The notes beneath the pieces were generated by a model, which worked only from the letters and a program-made list of their open reading frames with translations, was not told the origin of the DNA and ran no database searches. Made by a program: the position numbers and the translations under genes. From contig WFOS01000049.1 in NCBI GenBank assembly GCA_015487975.1, positions 1 to 64,000 of the forward strand: a stretch of 64,000 bases of DNA, read 5' to 3'. Positions 5,901-21,798 of the stretch are shown here, one piece after another. The stretch is from Ardenticatena sp. Its GTDB lineage: Bacteria; Chloroflexota; Anaerolineae; Ardenticatenales; Ardenticatenaceae. Positions within the stretch are counted from its first letter, which is position 1, and each line of letters starts with the position of its first letter.

Positions 5901-8375
5901 TTAGGCCTCGTTCTCCATCGGCGCCTCTGCGCCCGCTTTGCGGTGGAACGTCAACTCACCATCGGCGACATCCACCACGATCGTATCACCCTCGCGGAAC
6001 TCCCCAGCCAGCAAGTGGTGGCTGAGGGGCGTCTCTACATGGCGTTGAATGACACGCTTCAACGGACGCGCCCCAAATTCGGGGTTGTAGCCCTTGTCGG
6101 CTAGCCAGTCGCGTGCGGCATCTGTCAATTCGATCGAAAGCCCTGTTTCCAACACGCGCTCCGCCAGGTACTTGACCTGCAAATCCACAATCTGGTGCAA
6201 GTCTTCCTTTGTCAGCGCGCGGAACACAATCACCTCATCTACACGATTCAAAAATTCTGGGCGGAACGAGCGCTTCAAATCTTCCTCGACCTCGGCATTA
6301 CGCAACACGTTTTCGTCACCACGTTCACCCACACGGAAGCCAAGCGGGCCACCCCGCTGCATGTAGCGCGTCCCCAAGTTCGACGTCATGATGATGACGG
6401 TATTGCGGAAGTCCACCGTGCGCCCTTGCCCGTCGGTCAAGCGCCCATCATCTAGCACTTGCAACAACACGTTGAAGATTTCTGGGTGCGCTTTCTCGAT
6501 TTCGTCGAACAAGACCACTTGGAACGGGCGGCGGCGTACCTGTTCGGTCAACTGGCCGCCTTCCCCATACCCGACATATCCTGGCGGCGATCCAATCAGG
6601 CGACTGACCGTGTGCGGTTCGCGGAATTCGCTCATATCCACCCGCACCATGGCGTCTTCGTCATCGAACAGGAATTCAGCCAGCGCCTTCGCCAGTTCGG
6701 TCTTCCCTACACCTGTTGGCCCCAGGAAGATGAACGAGCCAATCGGGCGCTTAGGGTCTTTCAGCCCACTGCGGGCACGGCGAATGGCATCGCTAATGGC
6801 GGCAATCGCCTCATCCTGCCCAACAACACGGCGGCGTAGGTAGTCTTCCATGTGCAACAGTTTCTCGGCTTCCTTCTGCATCATCCGCTTGACGGGAATC
6901 CCCGTCCAGGACGAGACGATTTCGGCGACGTCTTCGGCGTCCACCGTCTCATCCAGCCCTTGTTCGGCACGCCATGCTTCCACCGCTGTCAAGAGTTCTT
7001 GTTCCAGCACGATACGTTGACTCTTGTAGGTGGCTGCTGTTTCGTAATCGCGATTCTGCCACGCTTCTTCTTCGAGTGTGGCGAGTCGGTCGATTTCCTG
7101 CTTACGCGTGCGCAAGTCAAGCGGCATATTGAATGCATCCACGCGCAGTTTAGCAGCGGCTTCGTCCACCAAGTCGATCGCTTTGTCGGGCAGTTTGCGA
7201 TCGGTCACATAGCGATGGCTGAGCCGCACTGCCGCTTCGATGGCCTCGTCGGTAATCGTGACATTGTGGTGCTGTTCGTATCGGCGGCGCAACCCTTTGA
7301 GCATCTCGATGGTATCCTCGACACTGGGTTCTTCGACGAAAACCGGCGCAAAGCGACGTTCCAGGGCGCTATCCTTTTCGATATAGTTGCGATATTCATC
7401 GAGTGTGGTCGCTCCGATCACTTGCAACTCGCCCCGTGCCAACATCGGCTTCATCAGATTGCTGGCATCCATGGCCCCCTGGGCGGCGCCGGCGCCCACC
7501 AAGTTGTGCAACTCATCGATGAACAAGATGATTTCACCCTCTGCATCGATGATTTCGTCCATGGCGGCTTTCAGGCGCTCTTCGAATTCGCCGCGGAAGC
7601 GTGAACCAGCCACCATCGCCCCCAGGTCGAGCTCGATGATACGCTTGCCGCGCAGGTGGTCGGGCACATCCCCCGCCACCACCATTTGCGCCAAGCCTTC
7701 GACAATCGCCGTCTTGCCGACGCCAGCTTCGCCAATGAGCACGGGGTTGTTCTTCTTGCGCCGTGCAAGCACGCGCATCACACGCAAAATCTCGGCCTCG
7801 CGCCCAATGACGGGGTCCAACTTCCCTTCGGCAGCCAGTTTGGTCAGGTCGCGTCCGTACTTTTCCAACGCCTGATAGCGTGTTTCAGCGTATGGATCAT
7901 CGACCTTCTGACCACCACGCATTTCATCGATGACATCGTACAAGTCTTCGAGATGAATATCGAATTCAGCGAACAACCGTCCCAGCGGTGTCTGCTTCTG
8001 CTGTTCTGCCAGGCGAGCGATCCCCAGGAGCATATGCTCGGTCGAGATGTATTCGTCATCCATCTTATCGGCTTCCTGGCTCACCAACAACACCAGACGC
8101 TGGACGGATGGCGTAACATAGACTTGCTGGGCGGGTGTCGCCCCCGAAAAGCGTACTTTGGGCTGCGCTTTCAAAATTTCATCCAGGCGCGCTTTCATCC
8201 GCTCAATGTCCACATCCAGGCGTTGCAGAATTTGCGAAACCAGCCCATCAGGTTGTTCCAGTAACGCCAGCAAGACATGTTCAACATCGAGCTGCGTATG
8301 TTGGTATCGTAGCAGAATTTCTTGCGAACGTGCGATGGCATCTTGTGCTCGTTCGGTAAAGCGATTGAAGTTCAT
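5901..8375 (-). CDS. clpC: ATP-dependent Clp protease ATP-binding subunit ClpC
   Basis: A class I Hsp100 unfoldase of 824 residues that feeds proteins to ClpP or disaggregates them. It has a Clp N-domain repeat pair (about 3-145), a first AAA+ module with Walker A GEAGVGKT at 215-222 and Walker B ILFIDE near 283-288, a short middle region with a UVR-like segment (about 425-460), and a second AAA+ module with GPTGVGKT at 552-559. The short middle region separates it from ClpB, whose long coiled-coil insert is absent. The ATG at 8375 follows AGAGGAGACC. The upstream stretch holds TTTCG-TCAG-CGAAA (8423-8436 complement), a possible control site. No McsA/McsB/CtsR genes accompany it. Confidence 0.93.
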
Positions 8376-9048: not shown

Positions 9049-12000
9049 CTACTGCAAGGTGCGCAGGTAGTTCAATTCGACATAGCGGATACCCGGCTGT
9101 GTACGCAAGGCCGCTCGTACAGCAACCTCACGTCCTTCGGGTACGCGAACGAGCCAAACGCCCGTGGACAAGACTTGTTCGACACGTTTGGCCCCGTATG
9201 TGGACAAGACGTCATCGAACGTGGAAAGGGTTGTTGCGTCGTCGTATGCCACAAGCAATTCGCCCGGTACCCAGTTGTTTTCCTGCCGCAAAAGGTCGGG
9301 GGCATCTTTGTAAACGTGAACGTACTTTCGCAAGGGGGCAAAGCGTTCTTGCATGGTCGTTACCACCGCACTGGACACTGCACTGCCTGCATCGAGGAGC
9401 CCATACCCGAATTCGTTGTCTACGCCCGGTGCCCCTAAGTCGTCGGCCGTTCCCTTCATCAACGTTGCTACATCATCGGGGCTCAACGCCGAATTGCGGC
9501 TAAGCAACAAGGCTGCCAGCCCCGATGCGTGTGCTGCCGCCTGAGCCGTTCCTGACATCTTGTTGTAGCCTGTGGCAGGTGCGCCGCCAAGGCTTGTTGG
9601 GTAGGTACTCCACACCCAATGTTGAATGACAGGATCGGTGGCATTTGCGGGATCACCGCCGCCGGCTGCCACATCGACATAACTATGCACGCTGCTGTAA
9701 GAGGCACGTTGCCGCTCGCTCGTCACAGCCGCAACGGCAATCACATCCGCAAGCGCAGCAGGGTAGATGACGGGGTTCCCATTCTCGTACTCGTTCCCGG
9801 CAGCAGCGACGATCACAGCGCCCTTGCTACGTGCATACGCAATCGCGTCACGTATCGCTTGGCTATCGTCTGGGCCACCGACGCTCAAATGGATGACATC
9901 CGCACCATGATCGGCAGCGTACTGAATGGCAGCGCTGATTGCGGCATCCGTTGCTTGCTGGCTTCCGTCGGCAAAAACTTTGAGCGGCATGATCTTGGCA
10001 TTCCAGGCTGCCCCCGCAATCCCCTGCGCGTTGTCGCCCACTGCTCCCGCCAGGCCAGCCACATGCGTGCCATGCCCATCCACATCTTGCGGCACCCCAT
10101 CGTTGTTTCCGAAATCCCAACCAGCGACAAGATTGGGTTTCAAATCGGGGTGGTTCAAATCCACACCTGTATCGACGATGGCAATGGTAACATCGTTCCC
10201 ACGACTTTGTGCCCAAGCGGCTTCGAAGTTGCTGATACGCATATCCCATTGCAATGCGTCGTAGTACGTATCGTTTGGTTTTGCTGTGGTCTGGTACGAG
10301 CCATTGAGCATAAGCGGTAAGTAGACCGTATGCTTGATTGGCTCATACGCAAGCTTGACTTGCGAGACACAGGCCCCATTCAGCGGGTTCGTCAATCCTG
10401 TCGTCGGGCGATTTTGGTTGATGAGCACCCGATACTGGGCATAGCGGTAGCGTGGGAACAGTGAGCCATCTTCATCGCGAATGTTTTGCCCCGGTGCATC
10501 GTAGTAGCCACCAGCCCCACCCACGCCACTCCACCGTGTCCAATTCCCATCGTTGACATCATCGAGCGGGGGTGTCGGGGTGTTGCCGAGACGCACCTGC
10601 AAGAGCAAACTACTGTCGAACTGAGTTGCCCCCCACCACTGGATATCGAACCAAATCGCCTCGCTCCCAGCATCGAAAACAGGCGAGATGTACGTTCCCC
10701 ATGCTTGGTAGCCGCGCGTATCGATTGCTTCCTGTGCAGTGTACTGCCCAACACGTCGCCCATTGAGCAAGCAGAGAGGTGTGCCCTCGGCACATGCCAT
10801 CTCGGAGACGAAAGGCGCCGCGAAAATATCACGGTTGGTTATGGTGCCGGAGAACGAGTCATCGTAGCGCGTATCATCCCACGCAATGGCGAATGGCAGC
10901 CATTCCGTGTTCAGCGTGGGCGTAATGACATTCGAAACCCGTGTGACCAATGAAGGGCGACGCTGGCGGACGCCCGCAGGTGCATACTCATCGTAGAGTT
11001 GGTTGTATCGTTGCTTGTCCGAGGCAATGAGCAGATCCAGCCGTTTGAGGTTGTCGTTGACATTGGCGACACCAACACGCTCTGTGAAGTTCGTCGTGGG
11101 CGTTGCATCTTCGGTTAGATTGCTCATTCCAGCAATATGAATGTCGTAGTTGAGGTCATCACTGCTCCGTCCATCGCTCCATGCAATGAAAACTTGGTAA
11201 GGATTGGCGACGGCAACCGTCGGTTCCCCTTGCCAACGTGTTTCCATTGGCTCCGCACTTCTCGAGTCCGGCCCCCAGCACGCATTCGACAATGGTTCGA
11301 CCGTATAGGCGCTTACATTGACATTGCCATACGACGTGAAGGGCGCAAACTCCGTCTCGATGATGTTTCCGCCGCTCGCACACAGGATTGGATCGTCACC
11401 GATCACGGACAAGATTTTGTAATCGGTGAAAAGCCAAGCGTAGTAAATGTCGGGGTTCCCATTCCGATAATCTTGCCATGCGACATGTGCCACATTGGTT
11501 TGTAGCGTTGCCTTACATTTGATGGGATTGTTGTTGTCGTCTTCCATCTGAAAGTCGATTTCAACCTGCAAGGGCATCGAATCCAAGGCGGGATCGAGTT
11601 GCAGGGCTGTCGTTCCATCGGTATTCATCTGAACGTCGATATCGAACGTGAAATAGAGTGGTGCAGGCGACGGTTGCCCGATACCCAAGAAAATATCCCC
11701 CCCATCGAAGCGCATATCCTGCCAGACGATGAACACATACACATCGTTGGGGGTGTTTCCATATGTCGAGACACTCAATTGTGGCAATCGCTGGTCTTGT
11801 GCAGTGGCCTCGGGATCGTCGGTGACGAAGACATTGGCTCCCCACGTCCAATTCAAACAACCGCCACTTCCATAGGCAAAATAAATATCGTCGTTGCCAT
11901 TGCGTCGATCCTGCCATGCCACGAAAAGATTGCCAAACGCATCAACCCCAATTGCAGGGGCCGTTTGGTCGGCAGTAGGGTTCACATTGAGATCGTTGAT

Positions 12001-13086
12001 GGGTAGAGGATCCTCGATCCACGTGGCACCATTGTCGGTGGAATACGCATGCCAAATATCGAACGAACCGAGCCGATTGTCCGCCCACACGGCATGATAT
12101 GTTCCGCAGGCTTCGTTGTAAATAAGCGATGGTGTCCGCTGAACATGGATGCTGTCTGCATCCGATGTAATGCGGACTGGCGTACTCCAAGTACGCCCCT
12201 GGTCGGTCGAGCGTGAAAAGTAAATGTCGGCATCGGTCGTTCCATTCCGCCAATCCTCCCACACGATGGCGACTTCATCCGTAGCATTGGGGCCTTTCAC
12301 CATGACAGGTGCAATTTGCAAGCCCGTCTCGGTAATGACAGCGTAATCGGGGAAGTAAATCTCGCGATCGAATTCTGGTTCGTCGAAATACTGCAACGCG
12401 TAATTGAGCTGCGTTGCCTGGGAAGCGATATAGCGGTCGTAGAACAGCCCAATCTGCATGAGCCCACGCGGATGCGACAAGTCCAAATTCGAGAATCCTT
12501 TTTGAAAGTCGGAGTGGCTCGATTGCTGCCAGTACGCCGACGTAATGACCTCGAACTGGGTAGGCCCCGTCACGTTGTTTTCTTCATCGCTTTCGACGAC
12601 GACACCCGTCGGATCGATGACTGCATAGACGTTGTGACGGCCTGTATCGGTAAAAGTCGTAGAGAAACTGAGCGTCCATACATTGCCATCGTCCACGTAC
12701 CACGATTGGACGCCCCATGTAAAGGTTGGTGGCCCAATATCGATGCCTGGTTGTGGGGGCAAGGGCGGGTCGATGTACAGATCCACGAAGAAGTTGTTGC
12801 CAGCAGGCAGATTGACGTCTCCCTGATTTTTGATCGCGACCTGAATGACAACCGTCTCACTGACAACGGGCGTCGTCGGAAAGACATTGACATGCGTGAC
12901 AACCAGGTCTGGCAACGCATCGGGCGATGCCGGAGCATCGCCCTGAGGTGCTATTTCTTCTGGTGGCGCGTAGGGCGTGGGGGTCGCTCGATCAGGCTGG
13001 TCGGCCATCACAAGGGCACGTCCAATCCCCAAAAACAGCGCCAGCACACAAAACCCCACCAGCGCTATCGTTTTTGTCGAACGCAT
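9049..13086 (-). CDS. Giant secreted subtilase-like protein, catalytic serine lost
   Basis: A 1345-residue exported protein. Order: signal peptide (1-28), Pro-rich linker, CARDB-type beta domain (about 58-165), a long region with BNR/sialidase-like repeats (SxDxGxTW near 285, VAWDDRR-like segments, about 235-800), a YLPLM motif near 920, then a peptidase S8 domain (about 955-1215). Asp972, His1005 and the oxyanion Asn1098 are all present in good context. However, the serine motif GTSMA reads GTAQA, with Ala1181 where the nucleophile should be. Residues about 1270-1345 resemble the subtilase prodomain (fervidolysin_N/I9), which normally sits at the N-terminus. It is probably a binding or regulatory pseudoprotease. 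The start at 13086 has GAGGAG five bases upstream, overlapping the stop of the LPDTG gene; a GTG at 13092 overlaps that site. Likely co-transcribed with 13096-13917. Confidence 0.88.
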   Translation of the reverse strand: MRSTKTIALVGFCVLALFLGIGRALVMADQPDRATPTPYAPPEEIAPQGDAPASPDALPDLVVTHVNVFPTTPVVSETVVIQVAIKNQGDVNLPAGNNFFVDLYIDPPLPPQPGIDIGPPTFTWGVQSWYVDDGNVWTLSFSTTFTDTGRHNVYAVIDPTGVVVESDEENNVTGPTQFEVITSAYWQQSSHSDFQKGFSNLDLSHPRGLMQIGLFYDRYIASQATQLNYALQYFDEPEFDREIYFPDYAVITETGLQIAPVMVKGPNATDEVAIVWEDWRNGTTDADIYFSRSTDQGRTWSTPVRITSDADSIHVQRTPSLIYNEACGTYHAVWADNRLGSFDIWHAYSTDNGATWIEDPLPINDLNVNPTADQTAPAIGVDAFGNLFVAWQDRRNGNDDIYFAYGSGGCLNWTWGANVFVTDDPEATAQDQRLPQLSVSTYGNTPNDVYVFIVWQDMRFDGGDIFLGIGQPSPAPLYFTFDIDVQMNTDGTTALQLDPALDSMPLQVEIDFQMEDDNNNPIKCKATLQTNVAHVAWQDYRNGNPDIYYAWLFTDYKILSVIGDDPILCASGGNIIETEFAPFTSYGNVNVSAYTVEPLSNACWGPDSRSAEPMETRWQGEPTVAVANPYQVFIAWSDGRSSDDLNYDIHIAGMSNLTEDATPTTNFTERVGVANVNDNLKRLDLLIASDKQRYNQLYDEYAPAGVRQRRPSLVTRVSNVITPTLNTEWLPFAIAWDDTRYDDSFSGTITNRDIFAAPFVSEMACAEGTPLCLLNGRRVGQYTAQEAIDTRGYQAWGTYISPVFDAGSEAIWFDIQWWGATQFDSSLLLQVRLGNTPTPPLDDVNDGNWTRWSGVGGAGGYYDAPGQNIRDEDGSLFPRYRYAQYRVLINQNRPTTGLTNPLNGACVSQVKLAYEPIKHTVYLPLMLNGSYQTTAKPNDTYYDALQWDMRISNFEAAWAQSRGNDVTIAIVDTGVDLNHPDLKPNLVAGWDFGNNDGVPQDVDGHGTHVAGLAGAVGDNAQGIAGAAWNAKIMPLKVFADGSQQATDAAISAAIQYAADHGADVIHLSVGGPDDSQAIRDAIAYARSKGAVIVAAAGNEYENGNPVIYPAALADVIAVAAVTSERQRASYSSVHSYVDVAAGGGDPANATDPVIQHWVWSTYPTSLGGAPATGYNKMSGTAQAAAHASGLAALLLSRNSALSPDDVATLMKGTADDLGAPGVDNEFGYGLLDAGSAVSSAVVTTMQERFAPLRKYVHVYKDAPDLLRQENNWVPGELLVAYDDATTLSTFDDVLSTYGAKRVEQVLSTGVWLVRVPEGREVAVRAALRTQPGIRYVELNYLRTLQ

Positions 13087-13095
13087 AGGCACTCC

Positions 13096-13917
13096 TCAGA
13101 CGGTGTCTTGGAAGAGTCGGCGCAAACCGGCAACGAACACCAGCAGTGTGCCAAAGCCGATTGCCAGTAACAAGGCGATATTGCCGCCCCCCGTATCGGG
13201 TAAGCGCGTAACAAGCGATGGTGTGACCGAGACATAGACACCCGGTGTCGTTGTAATCAAAATGGGTGTAATCGGGAACAACGTCCCCGTGGGAGAAGGC
13301 GTTGGTGTTTGGGTCGGCGTCGGTGTGACCGTCCCGGTGGGTGTTGGCGATGGGACAGGCGTCGAGGTTGGAAGGGGCGTCGAAGTTGGCGGTGGTGTCG
13401 AAGTTGGCGGCGGTGGCGTAAAAGTTGGCTGCGACGTTGGTGTGAGCGCCGGTGTTGCCCCCGGCGGCGGTGTTGCGGTCACCTGGCGTTGCAATACCGG
13501 GAAGTTGGCTTCACTGGCCAGACCAGCGAACACGGTCACAATGCGCTCATTACCACCACTCGGTGAGTAGGCAGTTCCCGTCGTATCGATTTCGACGCGG
13601 TACTGACCTGGGGCGACATTGGCAAAGAGGTAGTTCGGTGTCGCGGTTGTCGTTGTTTGCTGAGCCAGCACCGTATTGTCGCCCAAGGCATACAGGCGCA
13701 CCAGAACACCTTGGACTGGTGTCTCGCCAGGGTCGAAGGCCTGGTTTCCGTTGCTGTCCAGATAGACAGTACCTTGAATCGAACCAGTGCCCCCCTGGGC
13801 CAGCACAACGCCAGTTCCAAACCCTGCCTGCCCACCAAGGCCAAACAGCAGGAGCAAAGCCCCCCCAAAGAACAAGAGCAGCCGTTTGATGACAGAGGTC
13901 TGCATTTGTGGTTTCAT
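13096..13917 (-). CDS. LPxTG surface protein with SdrD B-like domain
   Basis: A 273-residue cell-surface protein. It has an N-terminal export helix (about 10-40), a prealbumin-like SdrD B/Cna-type domain (about 44-140) with the typical GSIQGTVYLDSNGN start and FANVAPGQYRVE end, a Pro/Thr-rich spacer (about 148-235), and a C-terminal sorting signal: LPDTGGG, a hydrophobic helix and the basic end RRLF. This is a textbook sortase A-type anchor, implying covalent attachment to peptidoglycan in a single-membrane cell. No sortase gene is in the window. The start at 13917 has GGAG 11 bases upstream; an in-frame ATG at 13965 would place a polar segment before the export helix. The stop lies 9 bases before the subtilase-like gene. 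Confidence 0.85.
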   Translation of the reverse strand: MKPQMQTSVIKRLLLFFGGALLLLFGLGGQAGFGTGVVLAQGGTGSIQGTVYLDSNGNQAFDPGETPVQGVLVRLYALGDNTVLAQQTTTTATPNYLFANVAPGQYRVEIDTTGTAYSPSGGNERIVTVFAGLASEANFPVLQRQVTATPPPGATPALTPTSQPTFTPPPPTSTPPPTSTPLPTSTPVPSPTPTGTVTPTPTQTPTPSPTGTLFPITPILITTTPGVYVSVTPSLVTRLPDTGGGNIALLLAIGFGTLLVFVAGLRRLFQDTV

Positions 13918-14058
13918 GTCAAACTGGTCTCCGCTTTTCCACACGTATGGAGCCATACGAGTCATGCTTCATTGTACGGGAAGCATAATTCTTGGTCAAC
14001 AAAAAGTTTATTTTCCGTACAACATTCTATCAAAAAATTGAAAAAAGGCACGAGATAC

Positions 14059-14853
14059 TCAGGGCAAGGTACGTTGCCAATCGACACGTACCACGGTGAC
14101 ACCACTACAATCACGTGGCATGACAAACGCAATCTCTTCGCTGGCACGCTGCCCATCTTCCAGCAACACAAGGTGCCACGTACCCGCCCGTTCTGGGGCA
14201 GGGCCAGGGCCCAGGTAGACTTCCCAGTAGCCATCGGCCTGCGTCACAGCATCTTGCTGATAGCCAAACTCGTTGAAGACGCGCACAGTCACATTCGAGC
14301 GCGGGGTGCCATTGTTGTTGTACACGTAGCCAAAGAACTTCATTTCTTCACAGCGCACCCCACCCAGCGAGTTGGTCACAATGTAGAGCGGCATTGGTGT
14401 AGGCGTGGGGACAGGCGGTGCCGAACTGCCACCGCCACCAGTCCCCCCTGTACCGCCCGTGCGCGGGGGCGGTGGTGGTGGCGATGTCGGGAATGGAATA
14501 GGTGTATCTGTTGGAAGTGCCGTCAAAGTCGCCACCAAGTCGGGGGTGGGTGTTCCTTCGATTGCTATGGCCGTTTCAGTCGCAACGGCCGCAGCCGTTC
14601 CCGTTGGCAATGGCGTCTCCGTCGGAGTCGAAGTGGGCGTCGGGGTCTGTGTTGGCGTTGCCGTTGGTGTCCAGGTGGGTGGCAGGGTTGCCACAGGACG
14701 CTGGGTGGGTGTCGGGGGGCGATGCGCCAGCCCGACTGGCGCTAACATGCTTGGACGTATCCACAGCAATCCAATAACCATAAGTGCCAAGATGGTAAGC
14801 ACAGCCATAACGGCGATGCCGATGTTCAGTTGTTCTTCACTCCAATTTTGCAT
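14059..14853 (-). CDS. Membrane-anchored protein with extracellular beta domain
   Basis: A 264-residue protein with a single N-terminal membrane helix (about 11-32) followed by a long Pro/Thr-rich spacer (about 45-150) and a C-terminal domain (about 155-264). The C-terminal domain contains two cysteines (in RCEEM and PRDCSG) that could form a disulphide, and a GFGYQQDAVTQADGYWEV-like strand pattern resembling carboxypeptidase regulatory-type beta sandwiches. The orientation puts the C-terminal domain outside. No enzymatic motif is visible. It precedes the LPDTG gene on the same strand by about 140 bases; that gap contains the inverted repeat TTGTACGG (13972-13979)/CCGTACAA (14015-14022). Confidence 0.7.
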   Translation of the reverse strand: MQNWSEEQLNIGIAVMAVLTILALMVIGLLWIRPSMLAPVGLAHRPPTPTQRPVATLPPTWTPTATPTQTPTPTSTPTETPLPTGTAAAVATETAIAIEGTPTPDLVATLTALPTDTPIPFPTSPPPPPPRTGGTGGTGGGGSSAPPVPTPTPMPLYIVTNSLGGVRCEEMKFFGYVYNNNGTPRSNVTVRVFNEFGYQQDAVTQADGYWEVYLGPGPAPERAGTWHLVLLEDGQRASEEIAFVMPRDCSGVTVVRVDWQRTLP

Positions 14854-14963: not shown

Positions 14964-16316
14964 TTATCGAAACACCTCGAAGGCATCGATTTGCCCAGTA
15001 AAGTAGCCAATTGGAAGCCGCCAATAGCGCATGTTGGTCACATCGTCTTTTTGAACGATCAGACGCAATCGTGCATCATCCGCCACCATGCCGTTGATAT
15101 CTGCCAGGCGGACATGCAATCCATCACGCGAGCCCCCCGGATCGCTGTATATGAGCGCGGCATGTAAACGGGCTTCCAGCCAGATGCGTTCGACCAGCGC
15201 CTGCTCTTCGGGTGGGCGGTTTTCAAGCGCCAAATGAATTTCCAATTCACGCTGGTTCCATAGTTGGGCCGCAATCAGGTCGAATTCCGCACGGCGAGAT
15301 TCCCACTGCGGCAAATGCCCCTTCCCAACCACCCCACGGCTCAACACACGCATCTGCTGTATCCAACGACGGTAGCGCTCTTGCCGCCCAAACGGGTTGG
15401 GCTCGTCAGGGTCGGCAAGCCACGTCTGAATGGCTGACTCTTCATCCATTAGCGCTGCTTCGAGCTGGTCCCACGCAGGGGTGCCCCCCGTTTGCAGGGC
15501 GAAACGGATTTCGCGAGCTACTCGCTGGCGTGCCTCTACTCGTTCCAGCACGAAGGGGGGCCAAGGCGCTGGTGCAGGTCGCGTATCCACGGGAACGGGC
15601 TTCACCACACCCAAATCACGTGTGCCGAGCACTTGCAATGCTTCTTGCACCGCTGCCACACGGGCATCCTCGCCAATGGCTTGATAGCGTTCCATCAAGT
15701 GCTGCAACAAGGCTTCGCGCACAGGTGGCGATATTTCGGGTGCAAAACGTGCCAGGATCGAAACCTGTTGCCAATCACGCAGGGCGGCTGTGCGTTCGCC
15801 CAGCTGTTCCAAGCCGTCGCCTGTTTGCAGAAGGATTTGCCCTCGGGCTACGTCATCGATGAAGGGAGAGGTCAACGCGGCCTGCCCGGCCAATACGAAA
15901 AGACGAGCGGCGCGATCTTCGTCTTCTGCCATTTGCGCTTCCGCCAACCGCACCAGGAACATGGCCTGCTCGCGGTCGTCCAGGTCGGGGGCAAAGAGCA
16001 CGAATGCGTAGGCGGTTGCATATTCCTGCGAAGCCAACGCTGTTTCGATACTCTGCCCATCCGGTACGCCACCTATCCAATCAAGCATCAAACCGGTATC
16101 TACGGCGTCCAACTGCAAGAGCCCAACTGCATCGGTCGCCAGCCAGCCCGTTGGTGGTTCGCTGCGTGCAGCAATCATGCGCATGACCACCAACAGTGGT
16201 AAGGCCAGCAGAGCCAGGACAATGACGCCTACCAGCCCCCAGACGAGCAGAGACAGCCCACGTCGTCGTGGTGGTGCTGGTTTTGGTGCGCCGATGGGTG
16301 GCGTTTGTTGGTTCAT
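14964..16316 (-). CDS. Membrane-anchored helical-repeat protein, function unknown
   Basis: A 450-residue protein with a basic Pro-rich N-terminus, one membrane helix (about 22-47) and a large helical region whose spacing (AEAQMAEDEDRAARLFVLAGQAAL and similar) resembles TPR/SEL1-type solenoids, from about 95 to 240. The rest is charged and helix-rich without a recognised motif. Start 16316 was chosen because GGGGA lies upstream and the membrane helix then sits near the N-terminus; a start at 16364 is possible. It is the first gene of the minus-strand surface cluster and may assemble surface or envelope complexes, but that is inference from position. Confidence 0.65.
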   Translation of the reverse strand: MNQQTPPIGAPKPAPPRRRGLSLLVWGLVGVIVLALLALPLLVVMRMIAARSEPPTGWLATDAVGLLQLDAVDTGLMLDWIGGVPDGQSIETALASQEYATAYAFVLFAPDLDDREQAMFLVRLAEAQMAEDEDRAARLFVLAGQAALTSPFIDDVARGQILLQTGDGLEQLGERTAALRDWQQVSILARFAPEISPPVREALLQHLMERYQAIGEDARVAAVQEALQVLGTRDLGVVKPVPVDTRPAPAPWPPFVLERVEARQRVAREIRFALQTGGTPAWDQLEAALMDEESAIQTWLADPDEPNPFGRQERYRRWIQQMRVLSRGVVGKGHLPQWESRRAEFDLIAAQLWNQRELEIHLALENRPPEEQALVERIWLEARLHAALIYSDPGGSRDGLHVRLADINGMVADDARLRLIVQKDDVTNMRYWRLPIGYFTGQIDAFEVFR

Positions 16317-16549
16317 GTATGAGTCCCCACGGCTCGTGTGCTCTGCCAGCATACATGTTGGCAAAAGCAGCTGATGGCGTCGTATGCCTTTTCTCGATGG
16401 TGCCGATTATACAAGTGGGCGACAAGAGGGGCAAGATTGCACAAAGTTTTGTGGTGTTTTTGGTACGAAATTTTGAAAATTTACCACACCAGGCAGAAAA
16501 AAAGCGCTGCCCATGCTGCTCGGACAGGGCACACGTGTCTTGTCTCTGG

Positions 16550-19884: not shown

Positions 19885-21798
19885 ATGCGTTTTTGGATAG
19901 CGATGGTCGTGTTTCTCAGCCTGATCGCACCCATCACGTGGCTGGCTTCCCAAACACCGCCCCTCCCCCCTGCCTTGAACGCTGCCCTCGCTGCGGGGCA
20001 TGCTGATTTTTGGGTGCTTCTTTCCCCGCCCGATACCACGCTGCCCCCCATGACCGGCAACATTGCCCAGATTCGGCGCCAACTGGTCACACGCTGGCAA
20101 GCCCATGCCGCCGCCGAGCAAGCCCCACTTGTACATATGGTGGAACGCGCTGGCGCCGAGGCACACTCCTTCTGGCTCGTAAACGCCCTGCTGGTTCGCA
20201 ACGGCACACGCGACCTGGCGTTGGCACTCGCACGTCAGCCTCATGTGGTAGGGCTGGCACTTGAAAGCGCGCATGCCATGCCTCTGCCTCAACCAGCAGA
20301 GGCCCCCACACGTGTGAACGGCACCGTTGAATGGCATGTGTCGCGCGTGGGAGCGCCCGACGTTTGGGCGAATGGCATCACTGGCGAAGGCGTGGTCATC
20401 GGCGTGCAAGATACAGGCATCGAAGCCACGCATCCAGCGCTGGCTACACGCGAACGTGTCGTTAGTGGCACACAGCCGCACGACTACGCCTGGCATGACG
20501 CCATTCACAGCGACATGAGCGGCAACGGGAGCAATCCCTGCGGTTTCGACAGCCCAATCCCCTGTGACGACCACGGGCACGGTACACACGTGGCGGGTAT
20601 TGCCGTGGGGGGCACCGCGACCGACAGTATCGGTATTGCCCCCGGTGCCACGTGGATCGCATGCCGCAACATGGAAGAAGGCGTTGGCTCGCCTGCAACC
20701 TATCTGGAATGCTTCCAATGGCTCCTCGCCCCCACGAAAGTGGACGGAAGCGAGCCACGCCCCGATCTTGCTGCTGACATCATCAACAATTCGTGGGCCT
20801 GCCCGCCCTACGAAGGATGCAACAGCACCAATACACTGTTGTTGCGGCGGGCGGTTGCTGCACTCCAAGCCGCGGGAGTTCTTGTGGTGGCCTCGGCTGG
20901 CAATGAAGGCCCCGCCTGCGACAGCACGAGTATGCCACCGGGCATGTTCATCGAGACGCTCTCGGTTGCCAGCAGTACGAGCAGCAACACGTTGAGCGGT
21001 TTCAGCAGCCGCGGGCCTGGCGAAGGCAATACGAAGCCCAACATCACCGCACCAGGAAGCAACGTGCGCAGCGCGTTTGTGGGGGGTGGGTACGCCATCC
21101 TCAGCGGCACCAGCATGGCAGCGCCCAATGTGGCCGGCGTGGGAGCGCTGGTGTGGAGCGGCGCTCCCCAAGTCAAAAACAAAGTAGCGCTCACGCATCA
21201 CATTTTGCAATCCACTGCCACACCTTTTCTCGATACATCATGCGGCGGTGACGACGACGCCCACCCCAACAATGCGTGGGGATGGGGGCTCGTGAATGCC
21301 CCGGCAGCAGTTGCCCGTGCCCAGACATGCGCCCAATACGATTGGGATGGCGACGGTGCCACAACAGGGGCTGAAATTGCCATGGTGCAGGCACATCTTG
21401 GAGAGCCAGTTGCCCCTGAAACAAGCGCCCTTGACCTCGATGGCGACGGCATGATCGACGCCGACGACGAAACGTTGCTGATGGGCTATTGGGGCGATGC
21501 CTGCGATGGGCTGGTCGTCATCACACGCGCCATCACCACCACCGCCACACTCACCAATACCACGCCCTTTACGCTTACCGTGCAGGCCACCTTCTTGCAA
21601 GGAACACAATTCGCCCATACCGGCTTTACCCTGTCGCTTGCGCCTTTTGCCAGCCATACACTTGCTTCGCCTACGCCTGTTGCCGACCAAGTGCGGCTCA
21701 CTGTTCTCTGGATGGGGGATGAAGACCTGCCACTTCGGATCGCCAGCGATACCGCGCCCCCAAAACGTCTGTTTCTGCCGCTTGTCCATACCGACTGA
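19885..21798 (+). CDS. Secreted subtilase with dockerin-like calcium domain
   Basis: A 637-residue exported serine protease. Signal peptide (1-22), a prodomain-like region (about 30-135), a peptidase S8 domain with Asp176, His232 and Ser410 in intact GVQDTG, HGTHVAG and SGTSMAAPN motifs, then a pair of EF-hand-like loops at DWDGDG (486-491) and DLDGDG (517-522), spaced 31 residues apart as in type I dockerins. A beta domain of about 90 residues follows and the protein ends in FLPLVHTD, close to the YLPLV-type terminal motif of many Chloroflexota secreted proteins. Extra cysteine pairs in the catalytic domain suggest disulphides. The start has AGGAGT upstream. Monocistronic with its own terminator. 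Confidence 0.9.
   Translation: MRFWIAMVVFLSLIAPITWLASQTPPLPPALNAALAAGHADFWVLLSPPDTTLPPMTGNIAQIRRQLVTRWQAHAAAEQAPLVHMVERAGAEAHSFWLVNALLVRNGTRDLALALARQPHVVGLALESAHAMPLPQPAEAPTRVNGTVEWHVSRVGAPDVWANGITGEGVVIGVQDTGIEATHPALATRERVVSGTQPHDYAWHDAIHSDMSGNGSNPCGFDSPIPCDDHGHGTHVAGIAVGGTATDSIGIAPGATWIACRNMEEGVGSPATYLECFQWLLAPTKVDGSEPRPDLAADIINNSWACPPYEGCNSTNTLLLRRAVAALQAAGVLVVASAGNEGPACDSTSMPPGMFIETLSVASSTSSNTLSGFSSRGPGEGNTKPNITAPGSNVRSAFVGGGYAILSGTSMAAPNVAGVGALVWSGAPQVKNKVALTHHILQSTATPFLDTSCGGDDDAHPNNAWGWGLVNAPAAVARAQTCAQYDWDGDGATTGAEIAMVQAHLGEPVAPETSALDLDGDGMIDADDETLLMGYWGDACDGLVVITRAITTTATLTNTTPFTLTVQATFLQGTQFAHTGFTLSLAPFASHTLASPTPVADQVRLTVLWMGDEDLPLRIASDTAPPKRLFLPLVHTD

Follow-up and report, generated by a model that had tools for sequence, protein, structure and literature searches.

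The prodomain of a subtilase is an intramolecular chaperone, which is made first, is needed for folding and is then cut off by the enzyme itself. After autocleavage of CspB, the free C-terminal residues of the prodomain (P1–P3) sit in the cleft, and removing or mutating the C-terminal residues of the prodomain makes the cleft accessible to an active-site probe (PMC3567191), a precedent for a prodomain C-terminus that closes the site. CspC, in turn, is a catalytically inactive subtilase (PMC3567191). Here, we analyse a subtilase homologue encoded in a 64,000 nt stretch of DNA from Ardenticatena sp. (positions 1 to 64,000 of contig WFOS01000049.1, referred to as the window), in which the prodomain is the last domain of the chain and the catalytic Ser is replaced by Ala. 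The reading that we favour, with somewhat better than even confidence, is that of a permuted zymogen, whose prodomain has moved to the C-terminal side and which, without being cut, closes its own active site with its free C-terminus; in the window copy the Ser has been lost.

Domain order of the window protein

The open reading frame (ORF) of the gene encodes 1347 aa from a GTG (13092) or 1345 aa from an ATG (13086). Single residues are numbered here from the ATG, as in an earlier sequence-only reading of the same DNA, and Pfam domain positions are counted from the GTG. The Peptidase_S8 match occupies residues 965–1231 and covers the whole profile (PF00082, 1–288 of 288; 205.6 bits against a cut-off of 21.8). 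It is followed, at residues 1271–1341 of 1347, by a match to the prodomain family PF22148 (E=6e-9; 36.5 bits against a cut-off of 21), which stops six residues short of the stop and scored 42.1 bits in the genome search. The fervidolysin-type order is therefore absent, and the prodomain-like module that the sequence-only reading had placed at the C-terminus is borne out. Of the 11 S8 matches in the window genome (3.5 Mb in 116 contigs), only that of the window gene is followed by a prodomain match. The same reading had found Asp972, His1005 and the oxyanion Asn1098 in place and Ala at the catalytic Ser position, 1181; sequence and alignment agree on all of these, and the Asp–His–Ser triad is thus incomplete in the window copy.

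Prodomain-last subtilases across the class

Two profiles, A1 (S8 plus C-terminal prodomain) and A4 (Ser motif to chain end), were run over 396 genomes of the host's class. Prodomain-last subtilases were found in 29 of these, the window's included (E<=1e-38 with A4), with one gene in each. The count was made with profiles built from the prodomain-last group, which distant members may escape but which set no requirement for a chain end at that point. By family codes, the 29 genomes fall into 12 families. Nearly all A4 matches span the profile from end to end, two (G027 and G079) being fragments, and sampling 400 genomes of the phylum added only one further case (G467). Because at least 28 homologues have the same order as the window protein, the C-terminal prodomain is a family trait and not a chance arrangement. 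A search of the open-access literature, mostly of titles and abstracts, found nothing on C-terminal subtilase prodomains or permuted subtilases; as far as it shows, the group-wide relocation is undescribed, and we regard it as of greater interest than the dead copy.

Detailed alignment of 28 prodomain-last proteins, including the window copy, revealed a uniform layout. No second, N-terminal prodomain and no domain C-terminal to the prodomain was detected in any of the 28 chains, and the linker from S8 to prodomain measures 26–44 aa in all of them; complete prodomain-first relatives have 120–501 residues C-terminal of S8. The chains finish with a strand carrying an (N/D)Y motif, then a few residues, then the stop, with Gln as the terminal residue in half (14/28) and only 0–2 residues past the profile end in 24. 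In prodomain-first relatives, the sequence 'YAEPDYIYHAL-(T/V)-PNDPYY..' runs across the junction directly into the catalytic domain, whereas the prodomain-last chains mostly terminate just ahead of the PND column. Set together, these patterns place the chain end at the canonical cleavage junction, so that, judged from the alignment, 24 of the 28 chains end about where an ordinary pro-subtilase would autocleave.

An S8 tree of the 28 prodomain-last and 29 prodomain-first proteins showed the two orders intermixed. A single origin of the prodomain-last order was rejected, as the tree requires at least four order changes, two of them forced by well-supported branches, though many inner branches are weak and leave their forks open. 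The prodomain has probably been relocated more than once, or the relocation reversed. At one locus, L213 (G079:C143), the contig end truncates a prodomain-last subtilase, which adjoins a same-strand ORF that begins with prodomain-like sequence; tandem pairs of this kind could be a source of the permutation.

Predicted structure

For the Ser-containing orthologue of G002, a genome of the same family, AlphaFold2 (AF2) predicted a packed prodomain and terminal strand with high confidence (57 rows; predicted local distance difference test, pLDDT, 93; predicted template modelling score, pTM, 0.93). The terminal block has a pLDDT of about 97, and the last strand runs from residue 403 to 414 of 415. 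DSSP reported strand or bridge at residues 119–120 and 143–145, which by alignment we take to be the two segments flanking the P side of bound substrate in subtilisins. DSSP gives strand or bridge to paired residues only, and from these assignments the C-terminal tail is taken to lie between both segments, which would put it in the S8 substrate cleft of the orthologue.

Docking of the C-terminal module on S8, which the sequence-only reading had put forward for structure prediction, is thus likely from the orthologue's model, but the model of the window fragment is weaker (10 rows; pLDDT 73.9, pTM 0.68), with the prodomain folded and the tail uncertain. Foldseek matched thermitase and subtilisins to the S8 part of the models (1thm against the orthologue model: TM-score 0.96 over the target), a sequential comparison in which the docked position of a permuted domain is out of reach. 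A sequence search of the Protein Data Bank (PDB) with the prodomain alone returned no relative.

Loss of the catalytic serine

Among 60 relatives, G001, of the same genus, has a full-length orthologue with 85% identity, and G002, G004 and G005, of the same family, have orthologues 53–58% identical over the larger matched pieces, the G005 copy being split across several frames. One contig scan found full-length orthologues in Ardenticatenaceae/Ardenticatenia metagenome-assembled genomes (Chloroflexota) only, where L132, L133 and L134 are the same three genes as the G002, G004 and G005 orthologues. The serine motif reads GTSQAAAH in G001, GTSQAAPH in G002 and G005, and GTSQAAPL in G004. In this last orthologue (L047/L132), Leu replaces the His of the GTSQAAPH helix and Ser is retained; this motif His is distinct from the catalytic His.

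Ser is present in 27 of the 28 aligned prodomain-last members, the window copy being the sole exception, and Asp, His, Asn and Ser are complete in those 27, save for one fragment without the Asp region. Loss of a catalytic residue common to the orthologues, as in a CspC-like lineage, was not found, all four orthologues keeping Ser. Of the two features on which a search for homologues had been suggested, the C-terminal prodomain therefore proved common to at least 28 proteins, and the change of Ser to Ala occurred in none of the 27 others aligned. The window copy is probably inactive as a protease and, judged from these comparisons, probably a recent pseudoprotease that retains the prodomain-last layout. 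The sequence-only reading had also pointed to the missing Pro of the serine motif. This loss is real, yet it carries little weight as a marker, since it is common to the Ser-containing congener G001 and so came before the loss of Ser.

Between the window genome (G000) and G001, synonymous sites have reached saturation (proportion of synonymous differences, pS, 0.75), which together with 85% protein identity indicates that the pair is old and the whole protein constrained. The same saturation made the ratio of nonsynonymous to synonymous substitution (dN/dS) unusable for this pair. In the S8 domain, private changes at sites unanimous in the other three number 16 in G000 and 9 in G001. Tajima-type relative-rate tests on this domain gave 29 against 13 (p=0.02) with G002 as outgroup and 20 against 16 (p=0.62) with G004, and relaxed selection was set aside because the outgroups disagree. 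Compared with 56 other S8 domains, the window protein deviates at 11 of 76 near-invariant columns; seven of the 11 are also changed in G001, and four, including N1066H and L1069V, are private to the window species. V1187A is another private change. These data fit an active site that is recently lost or weakly relaxed, and a selected scaffold role is not demonstrated by them.

Proposed mechanism and alternatives

In the permuted zymogen that we propose, the native C-terminus would correspond to the end that autocleavage generates in an ordinary pro-subtilase. The catalytic domain would fold against the prodomain that follows it on a 26–44 residue linker, the last strand of the prodomain would lie in the substrate cleft, and the C-terminal ..LRTLQ would fill S4–S1 as a product-like plug. 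The inhibited state would be reached on folding, making autocleavage unnecessary, and activation would require a cut in the linker or prodomain, or displacement of the tail. In the window species, the change of Ser1181 to Ala would leave a folded, probably inactive surface protein; because the first step, the inhibited state, would need no catalytic Ser, the fold could survive its loss. Closure without autocleavage is offered as an explanation of this tolerance, not as a result. We give an even chance to the broader proposition that permuted subtilase zymogens form a natural group, with most of its members in one class of Chloroflexota and with more than one origin. In this group the translated C-terminus would be the plug, inhibition would need no autocleavage, the prodomain would act after and not before synthesis of the catalytic domain, and Ser loss would be tolerated, yielding pseudoproteases such as the window protein.

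Several observations weigh against these proposals. Four of the 28 aligned chains (L049, L104, L094 and L110) have 5–9 residues past the profile end, so that the end is inexact there. PF22148 scores below the Pfam cut-off in L050 (20.4) and L053 (17.0) and has no match in L051, all three having been recognised by the group-built profile. The weaker AF2 model of the window fragment, from 10 rows, lacks the tail strand, and tail docking is deduced solely from pTM, pLDDT and DSSP. The change of Ser to Ala is known from one assembly.

That single assembly, in 116 contigs, and the presence of Ser in every relative would suit a mistake in assembly or consensus calling, or a rare allele of the strain, in a permuted subtilase that is otherwise active, for which a single base difference would suffice. 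However, the frame is intact over 4 kb, the relatives use TCG or TCC and not the codon one base from GCT, and V1187A, N1066H and L1069V suggest a somewhat altered domain; we hold this account to be improbable. Less improbable, though still unlikely, is the account to which the sequence-only reading inclined, a dedicated pseudoprotease or scaffold under selection as a binding protein, with the dead S8 and inhibitor-like domain as a recognition module. Pseudoprotease subtilases exist (CspC; PMC3567191, PMC6636752), and Ala at the catalytic Ser within an open 1347-aa frame, constraint on the whole protein (near-saturated synonymous sites against G001 at 85% identity) and the 11 deviating near-invariant columns, four of them species-private (N1066H and L1069V included), all speak for such a protein. 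Nevertheless, all four family orthologues, one of them congeneric, retain Ser, as does every other aligned homologue of the same order (27/27), which goes most of the way to the refutation that the sequence-only reading had itself named (same-order homologues that are all active), the relative-rate tests are inconsistent, and a function specific to the dead form is not visible from one species. The coupled changes in the serine motif, taken earlier as a sign of a dead scaffold, lose their force, as Gln commonly follows Ser in this motif (GTSQA occurs in many class members) and the Pro loss is found in the Ser-containing congener.

The C-terminal domain might instead be a general binding or dimerization module, or act in trans on another subtilase, and not be the prodomain of its own S8. 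Action in trans is known for the domain family (CspB prodomain, PMC3567191), and ten other S8 matches occur in the genome. The narrow linker range of 26–44 aa, the lack of a detected N-terminal prodomain in the same chains, the chain end at the cleavage-junction column and the high pTM for the single chain all argue against this, and we rate a module of this kind the least likely of the accounts considered. A particular target had been suggested, with the window protein controlling the active subtilase at 19.9 kb. That protein has a different layout and no match to the prodomain profile, and its gene lies on the opposite strand and outside the conserved neighbourhood tested. Regulation by the window protein was rejected as a candidate, since it found no support in profile search or neighbourhood comparison, and both the regulator and the dead-scaffold readings are weakly supported.

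Genomic context and surface features

Table 1. Features of the subtilase homologue and its upstream neighbours in the window
Feature	Position	Strand	Basis
Permuted subtilase homologue gene	9049..13092	-	ORF; full-length orthologues in same-family genomes
N-terminal hydrophobic segment, probable signal peptide or membrane anchor	13000..13086	-	Sequence MRSTKTIALVGFCVLALFLGIGRALVMA
CARDB domain	12568..12912	-	PF07705 E=5e-10
BNR/Asp-box-like beta-propeller region, extent estimated	10753..12249	-	BNR_2 E=3e-4 and BNR, both below cut-off; Asp-box motifs, e.g. STDQGRTW
Peptidase_S8 domain	9400..10200	-	PF00082 E=1e-60; thermitase fold match 1thm/1tec
Catalytic Asp codon D972	10171..10173	-	Asp in all aligned homologues covering the position
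Catalytic His codon H1005	10072..10074	-	Sequence and alignment of homologues
Oxyanion-hole Asn codon N1098	9793..9795	-	Sequence and alignment of homologues
Ala1181 at catalytic Ser position, codon GCT	9544..9546	-	Within MSGTAQAAAHASG; TCG in G001, TCC in G002/G004/G005
Ala for usual Pro of GTSxAxPH	9532..9534	-	Same change in Ser-containing congener G001
Relocated Fervidolysin_NPro-like prodomain	9052..9285	-	PF22148; alignment with N-terminal prodomains
C-terminal tail LRTLQ-COOH, proposed P5–P1 plug, putatively docked	9052..9066	-	Chain end at canonical pro/mature junction column; last strand to 414/415 in orthologue model
Upstream gene: SdrD_B domain, Pro/Thr linker, LPDTG, membrane helix and basic tail, probable sortase substrate	13096..13965	-	PF17210 E=1.5e-12; adjoins gene in G001, G002, G004, G005
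Conserved neighbour, one N-terminal membrane helix, no Pfam match	14059..14853	-	Neighbourhood comparison
Conserved neighbour, one N-terminal membrane helix, no NCBIfam match	14964..16364	-	Neighbourhood comparison

The last three genes of Table 1 form a conserved same-strand trio upstream of the subtilase homologue, and the stop of the SdrD_B gene lies 3 bases upstream of the GTG. A Clp-type AAA ATPase gene (5901–8375) lies downstream. Much of this gene order is retained in G001, G002, G004 and G005, within the stretches compared, and the window genome has three sortase-family genes. A cell-surface role for the window protein is likely. Of the two N-terminal regions proposed from the sequence, the CARDB domain was recovered by its Pfam model, and the BNR region shows visible Asp-box motifs with Pfam models below cut-off in the window protein (BNR_2 20.6 against 31.4 bits, BNR 17.1 against 27).

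A CARDB/BNR-type protein with a 1368-aa frame and no S8 match, L055 (G003:C418), is related to window residues 4–441 and 635–932, so the surface part also exists alone. A 'YLPLMLN/FLPLV.R' motif stands immediately N-terminal of S8 in most prodomain-last proteins (window 10300–10330, minus strand; L049, L050, L051, L052, L102), and the same motif lies at the extreme C-terminus of many other secreted class proteins (among them L022, L031, L086 and the 19.9-kb subtilase). The latter (19885–21798, plus strand) is an S8 protease in its own right, with intact GTSMAAPN, DTG and HGTH motifs and a weak dockerin-like match.

Comparison with known systems

The prodomain-last set occurs naturally and separates folding, inhibition and autocleavage, and so asks whether folding needs the prodomain first and whether inhibition needs autocleavage; it also opens the question of how such a zymogen is switched on. 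If our proposal is true, a pseudoprotease can arise in one step with its fold kept.

By sequence and fold, the best matches of the window protein are thermitase and subtilisin-type S8 proteases (1thm, profile E=7e-92), from which it differs in prodomain order, in its large CARDB/BNR N-terminal region and in the Ala for Ser. Prodomain-first relatives of the same Chloroflexota class (such as L034, L022 and L078) have the same S8 and prodomain families and are intermixed with the prodomain-last proteins in the S8 tree, but in them the prodomain comes first and runs directly into S8. The Csp proteins of Clostridium resemble the proposed zymogen in that the prodomain of CspB remains bound and closes the site, its free C-terminal residues lodged in S1–S3, and in that CspC is inactive. 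Csp prodomains are, however, N-terminal and freed by autocleavage, whereas the C-terminus of the permuted chains is native, and inactive CspC is an established regulator, whereas the inactive state here is found in one species, with a different host and role. Fervidolysin (PDB 1r6v) combines an S8 domain (profile E=7e-66) with a prodomain of the same family, PF22148; in fervidolysin and other PF22148 S8 proteases the prodomain stands in front of S8 and is removed by a cut at its C-terminal end, whereas here it is the last domain and the corresponding end is the native terminus of the chain.

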